From NCBI GenBank assembly GCA_002794775.1, contig NBAY01000011.1:310001-374000 (forward strand): 64,000 nt of DNA, read 5' to 3'. This DNA comes from Porodaedalea pini. Its lineage: Eukaryota; Basidiomycota; Agaricomycetes; Hymenochaetales; Hymenochaetaceae. The position numbers and the translations under genes were made by a program. Shown one piece after another: positions 42,411 to 46,642 of the stretch (positions are counted from its first letter, which is position 1; every line of letters starts with the position of its first letter). Below the pieces are notes generated by a model, which did no database searches, was not told where the DNA came from, and saw only the letters and a program-made list of their open reading frames with translations.

Positions 42411-42412
42411 TA

Positions 42413-42441
42413 AGGTAGGGAAAGTATAAACTCGACCAACC
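42413..42441 (+). repeat. Left terminal inverted repeat of transposon T
   Basis: 29 bp perfect inverted copy of 46612-46640; begins AGGTAGGG and ends CGACCAACC. Confidence 0.95.
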
Positions 42442-42810
42442 GTGACAGGACCCTACTTGCCTTATTGGGTGGCACACGGTGTCGACGATATTGGCTCTTC
42501 TACCGGGCACAAACTCACATTTGAGCCTCATAGTCCTCTTTACATTCTTGTTAGCTACAGATGTATGTTTTTTATTTTCAAAAATATGAAGATTCAGTTT
42601 GTCTATTTAAGGAAGAAACTCTTTTTATGCCAAAGGCCTTATTTTTCAACAAAAGGCATTTTAACGAACTTTGAAAATTTCAGCTCGACAATTTTTGCCG
42701 CTCTCGGCTATTCCCGGTTGACAAATAATTGCTTAATATAGTAATTACAAGCTATTACTAATGTGCATATCTTCACCATTTCCCCTCTCTCACTACGCAC
42801 AAGACAAGCA
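42442..42810 (+). promoter_or_regulatory. 5' untranslated and subterminal region of transposon T
   Basis: About 370 bp before the transposase ATG, with AT-rich tracts. A segment around 42685-42702 (TCGACAATTTTTGCCGC) resembles one near the other end (46536-46552, CTCGATTTTTGCCGCC), a possible subterminal transposase-binding repeat. Confidence 0.5.
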
Positions 42811-45800
42811 ATGGGACGTCGTTCCAAAACAATCAAAGCCAGGATACAGAACCTGAGCAGGAAAAAACAATCTGTGAGTAATATTAGTTGCTTCAGGGGA
42901 ATATCCTTCATGATTTCGGACAGCTTGTGGAACAGAATCCTGAGTCGGATGTTGGAGAACAGCTTGCAGAGCAGAATCTTGTCTCAGAAAGTGAAGGAGA
43001 AGATTCGGATTACCCAGAAGCTACGGATGATATAGTCTCGATTGCAAGTGTCGAGTCAAAGGATAGCGACGATGATGCAAACATCGACCGTGCAAGTATT
43101 CTTGATGCTGAAGGCGCACGGTCCATCTTTCGAACTCTTTCTGACGGGCTCTCCAACTGGCTATCACACATGAAAAGCCGTGCACGACCAACTAAATACA
43201 AAAAGATTAGCCTTCCACCACAGAGACCGGAACGTACCCAGCGACACCAAAAAGCAAAGGTTGGGCAGCAAACGTCGGAACTTCGCAAGCAGGGTTACAG
43301 GGACATTCGCAGTTTCTTCAACCCCCCTGCTAAACCTCCAGCTGGAATCACCCACACAGATGTGACTCCGATTGTCATTGATGAAGCAGAGCGTGACATT
43401 GTCGATGGGTCGTGTGGACAGGATGTGCACACCGAGCGGGAAGTTCTGCGGCGTCGTCCAGAGCACGATCTGCACGAGCACCTGGTTCGTGAACGAGCAG
43501 GACATGACGAACGACGGGTGGCGCATTATCGCGAGCAGCGCGGGCTATATGTCGAGACGCGAGAGACGCGTGTGTGTGGCCGGCTCAGTATGTCTTGTGG
43601 GCAGGATGTGCACTCCGAGCGGGAAGTTCTGCGACGCCATCCGGAGAGCGATTCGCGTGGGCACCCGGTTCGTGAACGAGTAGGACATGACGAACGACGG
43701 GTGGCCCAACGGCCAGCTGGGGTTCACGAGACGGCCGGACGCGAACAGCAAGATGCCGCGACCGGACACCATGGTGAAACGGTCCACCTGCGGCTTGACG
43801 ACGTTGACGAAAACCGGACCCGACACCTATTCGAGGTTCAAAAGACGGTCAGACGCGAGCAGGATGATATGACGACCGGACGACATGCTGCACCGGCGGG
43901 TTGGGTAGAAGGGCGTGCTGCGTCGACAGCAATGGCCTCTCATATGTCCGTCGATGAGTCTTCCCCACCTCAGTCTCCAGTTTCATTCACGGAAGAGCAA
44001 GTTTCCGCCCTGTGCGCGCAGATTCACGCCTTTCGATCAATCCAGCGAGGTATTCCCATTCCCAAACATATCCAGAATGCTTTTCTTCCACAGACCGGTC
44101 GTTTAACGGCATCAGAACTGTCTGAACCATCTCGACCGACCGATGCACTCACCTGTGGCCGCGAAGTTACACCAACAATCCCGCCGCGTCCCGAACATAT
44201 CCAGAATGCTTTTCTTCCGCAGAACGGTCGACAAACAGCATCAGAACAGCCCCAACCCTCATTCGCCGAGACCACACCCATTCCCGAACATATCCAGAAT
44301 GCTGTCGAAAACACTCTGGCGATTGCGCCTCCCAGCCTCTCCTTCCCCGAGCCGGTCCTACTCACCTTCCAATCAATCCAGTGGGGTACACCCATTCCCG
44401 AACATACCCAGAATGCTTTCCTTCCGCAGGCTGGCCAATCCGATGTGCCTGCACGTATTGTCGATGCCACTGGACATCCGCCAGTCATGATGGGCAAGCA
44501 CATCGCGGTCGATCGACTTGAGGCTCTTGGATTCCCGCGACAAGCAGCTTTTGAGGCGTACTTTGCGTGCGATCAGAATGAGGAGATGGCTGCGAACTAT
44601 CTGTTCGAAAATGCACAGTCCCTCTCATACGCACCTGTACCCATTCTGATGCGAGAGGAGGAAGGAGAAGACACCGACGATGAGACAGTAAAGGAGACAC
44701 ATACCGCTGCGCGTGAACCTGACTTGAAGCACATCACCCCTAATCGTAGAGATCCTGCTCTTGACGACGCAATATGGCGGCTTCACTGTTATTCCAAGGA
44801 CAAAAATCTTGATTTATTGCTTCAAGGTCGTATTACGGCGATGCTTGTCTTTCTGCGGCTGTATGTTGAGAATAAGGAGTTGAGGTGGGTGGAAGCTTCT
44901 GTCGTTGCTTCCTCCCTGGCGGCTGGTCGTGGAAAACATTTGGCTCGGTGTATTCGTCGTTGGGTGCGAAAGCATCTTGTTGACCATCGTTATTTGCCCA
45001 TAAATCTGTATGGCTCATGGAAGAGGTCAATAATCAGTGATGAAGATTTTGCATCAGAAATTCATTGTCACCTTCAAAGCCTTGGGAAGGAATACTTGTC
45101 GGCGAAAGATGTCCAGGACTACTTGAATGAACCTGGCGTGCTATCTCGTCTGGGTCGTTCCAAACCTGTCACATTGCAGACAGCTAGGAAGTGGTTGAAC
45201 GCAATGGGATACCGATATGGAAAGGAGCCAAATGGGATGTATGTTGATGGTCATGAGAGAGAGGATGTCGTGGATTACCGTCAGCGCGTCTTCCTGCCTC
45301 TCTGGGCAGAACTTGAGAAGCAGATGGATTTAGGGAATATCGACAACGCAACACAAGCTCGCCTCATTCTTGTTACCCATGATGAATCAACTTTTTATGC
45401 AAACGATCAACGTAACACAAAATGGGTCCATAGCAGCACTGATGCAAAACCGCGGACAAAAGGTGAAGGATCATCAATCATGGTTTCAGACTTCTGCACT
45501 CCGCAGGCAGGCTGGTTGAAATCAGCAGATGGGTGCGTCTTTCTGCTCTCTCTTCAGTGGCAATAGACTGAAGTTATTTCTTGCAGTTCTCGAGAGGCTC
45601 GCATATATTTCAAAGCTGGCAAAAACCGAGAGGGTTATTTTGGCCACGAAGACCTCCAGAAACAAGTCACCGCTGCTATTCAAATTTTTGAAGATTGCTT
45701 TCCTGGCAGTATCGCTCTCTTTGCTTTTGATAATGCCACGACACATCAGAAACGTGCAGATAATGCACTTTCTGCACGCCATATGCCCAGAAATCCTGGC

Positions 45801-46472
45801 TGGAAGGCACGAGAGACATCTGGCGCTCCTCCTATGCGTCCTGGTGTGCTCCCTAATGGCTCTTCGCAGTGTCTTTATTTCCCTCTTGACCATCCACAAT
45901 TTTCTGGAAAATTCAAGGGCATGGCTCAGATCCTTCAAGAGCGTGGATTTGATGTGCGAAAAAAATTGGCTCAATGCGAGGGTTTCAAATGCAAGGACAA
46001 AACTCTCAATGCATCCTGCTGCTGCCGCCGCATTTTATTCAACCAACCAGATTTCCGTTCACAAAAGTCAGCCATTGAAGAACTTATCGAGAGCCATGGC
46101 CACAAAGCTATTTTTTATCCCAAGTTCCATTGTGAACTGAATTTCGTCGAACAGTGCTGGGGAAATTCAAAATATAATTACCGGATGATGCCTCGCCCTC
46201 AAAATGAGTTACAGATGGAAGAGAATGTCAAGTTATGCCTTGATTCTATTCCTGCTGAGCTTTTTAGAAAGTATACATTTTATTCAAAAATATTAAAGCA
46301 AATTCGCTGATTTCAGATACATTACAGGTATGCTGATCGATCCGCACGCTTTATGGATGCATATCGCAAGGGACTGACTGGAAAGCAGGCTCAGTGGGCA
46401 AATCGAAAATATCATGGCCACAGAACTCTGCCGGATAGTATCATGGCTGATTTGGAGGCTTCAGGCATTTGA
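42811..46472 (+). CDS. Transposase of T: DDE endonuclease with QLQ and UBA domains
   Basis: Four exons: 42811-42873, 42924-45532, 45587-46270 and 46328-46472, giving 1166 aa with introns of 50-57 nt and no stops. Residues 184-305 hold a 61-codon tandem duplication (SCGQDVH...). Residues 374-408 match the QLQ motif of SNF2 remodellers ([16 protein letters not shown]), followed by degenerate [10 protein letters not shown] repeats. Residues 547-587 match the second UBA domain of RAD23 ([17 protein letters not shown]). A helix-turn-helix-like region (residues 650-800) precedes the DDE core: D841 (THDESTF), D939 (FAFDNATTH) and E1079 ([10 protein letters not shown]). The 139-residue D-E gap includes a Cys-rich insertion. 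Exons 1-2 and 3-4 join only with the introns given. Confidence 0.9.
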
Positions 46473-46611
46473 TACATATGTATTTTGAATGAATATATAC
46501 CTCCTTGTCACTTTAAAAAAAAAGTCGACTCTGACCTCTCGATTTTTGCCGCCAGGGTCCTTCCAAATGGGGTAAGTGTGACATCAGGGTTCGTGACATT
46601 GATGTGACTTG

Positions 46612-46640
46612 GGTTGGTCGAGTTTATACTTTCCCTACCT
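46612..46640 (-). repeat. Right terminal inverted repeat of transposon T
   Basis: 29 bp perfect inverted copy of 42413-42441. Confidence 0.95.
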
Positions 46641-46642
46641 TA

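Follow-up and report, generated by a model that had tools for sequence, protein, structure and literature searches.

Host-gene fragments inside the transposase gene of an apparently autonomous TA-inserting transposon of Porodaedalea pini

Coding sequence of cellular type has been found on several kinds of transposon, among them plant Mu-like elements with an Ulp1-type domain, that is, a protease domain. These elements (KIU and non-TIR MULEs), like the one described here, are DNA transposons with a host-type domain, the conservation of which has been read as advantage (PMC13317346). They are a plant superfamily for which the excerpted text of that source describes no multi-donor mosaic, whereas a multi-donor mosaic is what we report here. 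In Pyrenophora tritici-repentis, excerpts of the published account describe transduplication giving a hAT element with a histone H3-like open reading frame (ORF) and a Tc1/mariner element with an extra ORF (PMC3538342). As in our case, these are fungal DNA transposons with terminal inverted repeats (TIRs) and cellular coding sequence between their ends, and an in-frame chimeric protein, there in shortened form, also occurs (PMC3538342). However, the H3-like ORF lies separately beside the transposase; in the present genome, by contrast, several families together carry pieces of six genes built into the transposase frame itself. Between the TIRs of plant Pack-TYPE elements there are likewise host gene fragments, but these elements are defined, in the part of the source cited, as non-autonomous (PMC8903248); the element studied here, family 1 (fam1), falls outside that definition, its fragments lying inside the transposase frame itself. 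Gene-fragment capture in a mushroom-forming fungus is also known from Pleurotus Helitrons with captured genes (PMC4289320); Helitrons are rolling-circle elements, whereas family 1 is a TIR/TA element.

Family 1 is a case of transposon gene capture (transduplication), with three donor loci for family 1 and six over all element groups found elsewhere in the genome, and it is new in that the capture lies inside the gene of an apparently autonomous transposase. In the literature compared, as far as the excerpted texts go, DNA captured between TIRs is cargo of non-autonomous plant elements or, in fungi, a separate ORF; here captured host DNA became part of the transposase in an element with near-identical copies. 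A literature search, which was not exhaustive, found no description of a mosaic within a transposase's own frame and no published element joining QLQ to a DDE transposase or UBA/RAD23 to a transposase.

Ends, copies and gene model of the element

The window analyzed here is the whole stretch of 64,000 nucleotides, and the genome searched comprised 53.3 Mb in 201 contigs. The following features, in window coordinates, define the element and its gene; all transposase introns are GT/AG predictions.

42413..46640, + strand: whole transposon, the family 1 copy on contig C11 (inverted ends, TA flanks, full copies elsewhere in the genome)
42413..42441, + strand: left 29-bp TIR, TA target at 42411-42412
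46612..46640, - strand: right 29-bp TIR, TA target at 46641-46642
42811..42873, + strand: predicted transposase exon 1 (GT/AG model; 11 N-terminal residues resemble those of relatives P0002 and P0008)
42924..45532, + strand: predicted exon 2, with the conserved N-terminal part, the host-derived linker and the start of the catalytic core with the first D (open frame, Pfam)
45587..46270, + strand: predicted exon 3, with the second D, a cysteine cluster and the E (DDE_3 below cut-off; 258 core homologues)
46328..46472, + strand: predicted exon 4, transposase C-terminus (GT/AG model; like the C-termini of five relatives)

A first-pass annotation had proposed a transposon with perfect 29-bp TIRs and a TA target, and this was borne out, the two TIRs of family 1 being perfect with TA on both outer sides. 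Its limits for the gene, 42811..46472, were also right, with an ATG at 42811 and a TGA at 46470-46472. Two other full-length copies, 99.5% and 98.9% identical to the window copy, were found in the genome, and TA flanked both ends in 3/3 full copies, each at a different TA site. Because the copies are near-identical, family 1 appears to have moved recently. Judged from its sequence, we class it as a TA-inserting DDE transposon that looks autonomous.

The annotation had further placed both modules in one uninterrupted reading frame. QLQ, UBA and the first D do share the open exon 42924-45532; the predicted intron at 45533-45586 separates the first D in exon 2 from the second D (D2) and the E, so that the catalytic core itself is interrupted. 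The D2-E spacing is 139 residues (45729-46151). In classic Tc1/mariner transposases this spacing is short, about 34 to 41 residues, and we therefore call family 1 Tc1/mariner-like and not a member of Tc1/mariner. The DDE_3 profile matched predicted exon 3 at 22.3 bits (E 1.3e-4), against a curated cut-off of 28.6 bits. The catalytic part had 258 homologues among 7995 scored candidates, the best-scoring among the matches listed being a Tulasnella protein with 50% identity. In the 120 homologues listed of these 258, all organism-named ones were fungal, and Pfam at E 0.01 placed DDE_3 in 116, HTH_33 in 3 and Transposase_21 in 1. QLQ, UBA, RRM, XPC-binding and Aft1 domains were found in 0/120 of these relatives at the same threshold, in a scan that would overlook captured pieces lacking a Pfam domain. 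A cysteine cluster (C..FKC...CCCRR) that is largely common to the aligned relatives lies in the D2-E interval.

Four short derivatives of family 1 were also observed (on C20, C2, C26 and C80; L004-L007 and L017-L019). They are about 780 bp long, MITE-like and without transposase, have one common internal deletion junction, and are 95-97% identical apart from one 110-bp piece at 92%. One of them (L006) is missing the TA at one side, and in the derivative on C2 about 6 kb separate its two parts.

Host DNA in the linker and in related families

The linker of family 1, from the conserved N-terminal part to the catalytic core, is largely patched from host DNA. Nine pieces of three host genes account for 768/1199 bp between 43415 and 44613, and no match was found in the host genome for the other 431/1199 bp.

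43415..43522, - strand: host SAHH (adenosylhomocysteinase) fragment, antisense, 108 bp, 94% (donor C22:372600-374000)
43598..43800, - strand: host SAHH fragment, antisense, 203 bp, 84% (donor C22)
43834..43895, - strand: host SAHH fragment, antisense, 62 bp, 89% (donor C22)
43968..44099, + strand: host SNF2 fragment encoding QLQ, 132 bp, 86% (donor C5:776000-781500)
44189..44228, + strand: host SNF2 fragment, 40 bp, 100% (DNA match)
44274..44303, + strand: host SNF2 fragment, 30 bp, 100% (DNA match)
44365..44429, + strand: host SNF2 fragment, 65 bp, 89% (DNA match)
44442..44472, + strand: host SNF2 fragment encoding 10 residues, 31 bp, 97% (DNA match)
44517..44613, + strand: host RAD23 fragment encoding UBA2, 97 bp, 87% (starts at a predicted host exon boundary)

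The proposal, made from the letters of the window, that host coding segments were captured is supported by these DNA-level matches, with the donor loci in the same genome. Neither outcome named beforehand as refuting it was observed: both modules gave significant profile hits, and neither occurred in the 120 relatives scanned. The SNF2 donor on C5 carries QLQ and HSA domains, and the SAHH donor was recognized by Pfam at E 3e-74. Several captured pieces are smaller than a domain. Among 25 compared proteins, those of Coniferiporia, Phellopilus and Fomitiporia were nearest by score to the host RAD23, a partly joined sequence. Host RAD23 was seen in two closely similar places, L072 (C7:20800-24000) and L073 (C11:887800-891200), about 21-22 kb from contig ends; this doubling is either a contig-end duplication or an assembly duplicate.

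Both modules were recovered by profile where the first reading had put them, in exon 2: QLQ (PF08880) at about residues 375-407 of the gene model (E 6.3e-11, 42.2 bits, cut-off 23.8) and UBA (PF00627) at about residues 550-581 (E 3.3e-10, 40.0 bits, cut-off 22.4). Three further copies of a 10-residue motif, also reported there, are real and correspond to three SNF2-derived pieces (65, 40 and 30 bp); the 31-bp piece, a fourth, also encodes 10 residues. The element QLQ has 84% amino acid identity to host SNF2, and its match among PDB chains was weak (SMARCA4, E 0.009). For the UBA module, the first match among PDB sequences was RAD23 UBA2. At 15 columns of the UBA region the element and the 24 aligned RAD23-type proteins all have the same residue, and the element has Q where the RAD23 consensus has a nearly invariant K. 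An AlphaFold model, predicted on the alignment with these 24 RAD23-type proteins, gave a three-helix UBA with a mean pLDDT of 72 (79-89 in the helical blocks). Its best PDB match was an hHR23A UBA2 chain (rmsd 0.7, probability 1.00, Foldseek E 0.04); 0/113 matches reached E 0.001, which is to be expected of a domain of 40 residues. In its profile, its RAD23-type residues and its predicted fold, the module has the features of RAD23 UBA2. Searches of public proteins, which restricted candidate length and shared words, returned 25 matches for the UBA region, none of them a transposase (Pfam identified 24 as RAD23-type, and the remaining one is a UBA protein named as a lysophospholipase), and 34 candidates for the QLQ region, of which 0 scored.

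We compared 17 element copies, drawn from many matching places and split by core identity into six groups. Over these groups the donors, identified by Pfam and PDB sequence comparison, were SNF2, RAD23, SAHH (antisense), CDC5, an HTATSF1-like gene and an ATF1-like gene; QLQ is present in 4/6 groups. The four fam2a copies (C6, C77, C5 and C4) are 98.8-99.6% alike over the core and lack UBA. Both fam2a and fam2b (C33 and C157) hold SNF2 and CDC5 pieces, the latter measuring 250 bp at 90% in L075 and 243 bp at 84% in L045, with the remaining copies matching L075 there. Alignment located SAHH pieces in L075, L040, L021 and L045, and L075 also has a RAD23 linker piece. A search for more donors in the parts of L075 and L076 that were still unexplained found CDC5 alone as new. 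The single C1 copy, with an interrupted reading frame, combines SAHH, SNF2 and two RAD23 pieces with 299 bp, at 91%, of the HTATSF1-like RRM gene. In fam3 (C75 and others), 1031 bp at 93% of the ATF1-like gene are joined by RAD23 XPC-binding pieces; its six copies are 95.6-99.5% alike and have neither QLQ nor UBA. C29b holds ATF1 and RAD23 pieces. We take C68 to be the host ATF1 gene, since the frame there runs beyond the shared block and no transposase match was found there. About 6.3 kb interrupt one family-3 copy (C27:85669-91949; L030 and L024), and by eye one side looks like a retrotransposon integrase.

Route of capture

The CDC5 piece of fam2a retains the predicted host intron (57 nt in the element and 58 nt in the host, frame-neutral either way), and across the exon junction the spliced host CDC5 sequence can be aligned with Cdc5 chains. 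Retention of the intron indicates that the CDC5 piece came from genomic DNA, and the other donors presumably did so too. A spliced-RNA or cDNA origin as the general route, hinted at by the start of the UBA piece at a predicted host exon boundary, was rejected because CDC5 keeps its intron. Antisense SAHH and intron-bearing CDC5 together indicate that capture was not domain-directed. The native frame was kept in at least 5/6 donors; given the open frames per fragment (P 0.15) this is within chance, and we dropped it as evidence of selection. Nor do we claim short-patch conversion from the host, which was clear in 1/8 mismatch-clustering tests: family 1 UBA gave P 0.009-0.010; fam1 QLQ, L075 QLQ and SAHH copy 2 reached P 0.053-0.061 for gap variance only; and the other 4/8 were not significant.

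These elements very probably captured genomic DNA with open reading frames acting as a filter. Repair with template switching is the likely mechanism. An excised or nicked element would be repaired with template-switching or ectopic repair synthesis, by which host pieces would be inserted, and such pieces would persist solely where the transposase frame remained open. Divergence from the donors differs, with dS of 0.12 for ATF1, 0.19 for RRM and about 0.5 for family 1 QLQ. Between fam1 and fam2a (L075), QLQ has a dS of 0.07, whereas their cores are saturated for synonymous change; this implies that the cargo postdates the split of the families and was exchanged, or that its synonymous sites are constrained.

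Selection and possible roles of the modules

Changes on the element branch were counted on the assumption of single captures, the sole references being the host gene and the C1 copy. The test covered 17 changes, with three-way-differing sites (3 UBA, 1 QLQ) left out. The fam1 UBA branch (31 codons) had 5 synonymous and 1 non-synonymous changes, and the QLQ branch (42 codons), mostly shared with fam2a and read from the per-site majority of the three fam1 copies, had 7 and 4. Combined and set against neutral expectations weighted by transition/transversion (ts/tv) ratios of 0.5-3, the 12:5 ratio gave P 7e-5 to 1e-3, a value that is one of several tests run and uncorrected; the ts/tv of 2.9 in the SAHH pieces puts it near 1e-3. 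Two controls looked neutral: antisense SAHH compared with the host in the element frame (9:30 synonymous to non-synonymous, a pair comparison that pools both branches) and the C1 copy (3:10). On its latest tips (fam1 vs fam2a), QLQ also looks neutral, with 2 synonymous and 5 non-synonymous changes. Pairwise dN/dS with the host was 0.15 (fam1), 0.12 (L075) and 0.26 (C1) for QLQ, 0.08 (fam1) and 0.28 (C1) for UBA, 0.38 for RRM and 0.60 for ATF1. On these counts we regard the chance that the QLQ and UBA modules are under selection in the element as about even.

We lean toward an account in which a recently mobile transposon, its linker patched with host DNA, has kept modules for their benefit; that the RAD23 UBA2 and SNF2 QLQ of family 1 would have been retained as useful to the transposase is moderately supported, with the departure of the element UBA from the nearly invariant K of RAD23 speaking against it. 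The first-pass suggestion that the captured segments are put to use is supported only in part, in that UBA and QLQ have fewer amino acid changes than neutral sequence. Speaking against use are a capture that is not domain-directed, frame retention within chance, and the near-identical copies of fam2a without UBA and fam3 without both modules, from which the modules seem optional for moving. The same points, with the sub-domain fragments, the neutrality of SAHH in the element frame and of QLQ on the latest tips, suit a reading in which the linker is a permissive spacer that tolerates any in-frame DNA, QLQ and UBA being incidental to it and in decay. We put its probability somewhat below even, as it does not account for the mostly synonymous changes of UBA and QLQ on the element branch, unlike those of SAHH in the same frame, or for the 15 UBA residues held in common with all the aligned RAD23-type proteins.

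Capture may instead have taken place in a related fungus and been followed by horizontal transfer, the low dN/dS then reflecting selection in that fungus's own genes. The unequal donor divergences fit such a history, as does a QLQ far closer between fam1 and fam2a than their cores. However, fam1 and the C1 copy have in common their UBA junction and four departures from host RAD23; at one of the four the host has the consensus residue of RAD23, so that some UBA divergence arose in the element; and the 1031-bp ATF1 block matches this genome at 93%. We consider this history quite improbable. The pieces could also act as RNA rather than protein, exact host-gene stretches making it costly for the host to silence the element through RNA; the excerpted text of a review describes such a conflict between essential-gene capture and silencing for plants (PMC13317346). 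The identical SNF2 runs (40/40 and 30/30 bp), a 43-bp run of SAHH identical to the host, the antisense orientation of SAHH and the use of the same donors by several families are in keeping with this, but it predicts no synonymous bias in UBA and QLQ. The donor genes, moreover, may not all be essential, and we give this shield a slim chance. Very improbable, too, is the role in part put forward by the first-pass annotation, in which QLQ is retained for engaging chromatin remodellers and opening the chromatin of the target. Its profile score, its 7:4 synonymous bias and its presence in most groups speak for it; the absence of QLQ from fam3, the weak SMARCA4 match and the partial SNF2 repeats, which show the block duplicating without domain logic, speak against it.

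If the modules are indeed kept for benefit, the role that we prefer, possible though doubtful and argued by analogy, is that UBA2 stabilizes the transposase: it would shield the protein from the proteasome, as in RAD23, and so prolong its life. RAD23 UBA2 is described, in the excerpt cited, as an intrinsic stabilization signal, and UBA fusions as a means of increasing protein stability (PMC7253670). Likewise, in the excerpted reports, UBA is fused to another protein with the aim of greater stability in Cas9-UBA (PMC7253670) and APOBEC3G-UBA2 (PMC2535603); those fusions are laboratory-made, whereas stabilization in family 1 is putative. Should it hold, the transposon would have co-opted a part of the host ubiquitin pathway, and its transposase would be a natural counterpart of engineered UBA-fusion nucleases. 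A broader version, which we think unlikely, would make the transposase a natural exon-shuffling machine that repeatedly samples the genomic DNA of a few host genes, swaps cargo between families and keeps helpful modules, UBA2 giving family 1 proteasome resistance. With identified donors, genomic capture shown by an intron for one of them and SAHH as a neutral control in the same frame, domain theft as a functional gain becomes testable.

As a separate observation on the transposase itself, the motif LRxQGFxDIRxFF is conserved in the N-terminal part of several families (window 43284-43322; L075, L076 and L008), and we take it to resemble a PCNA-binding box.
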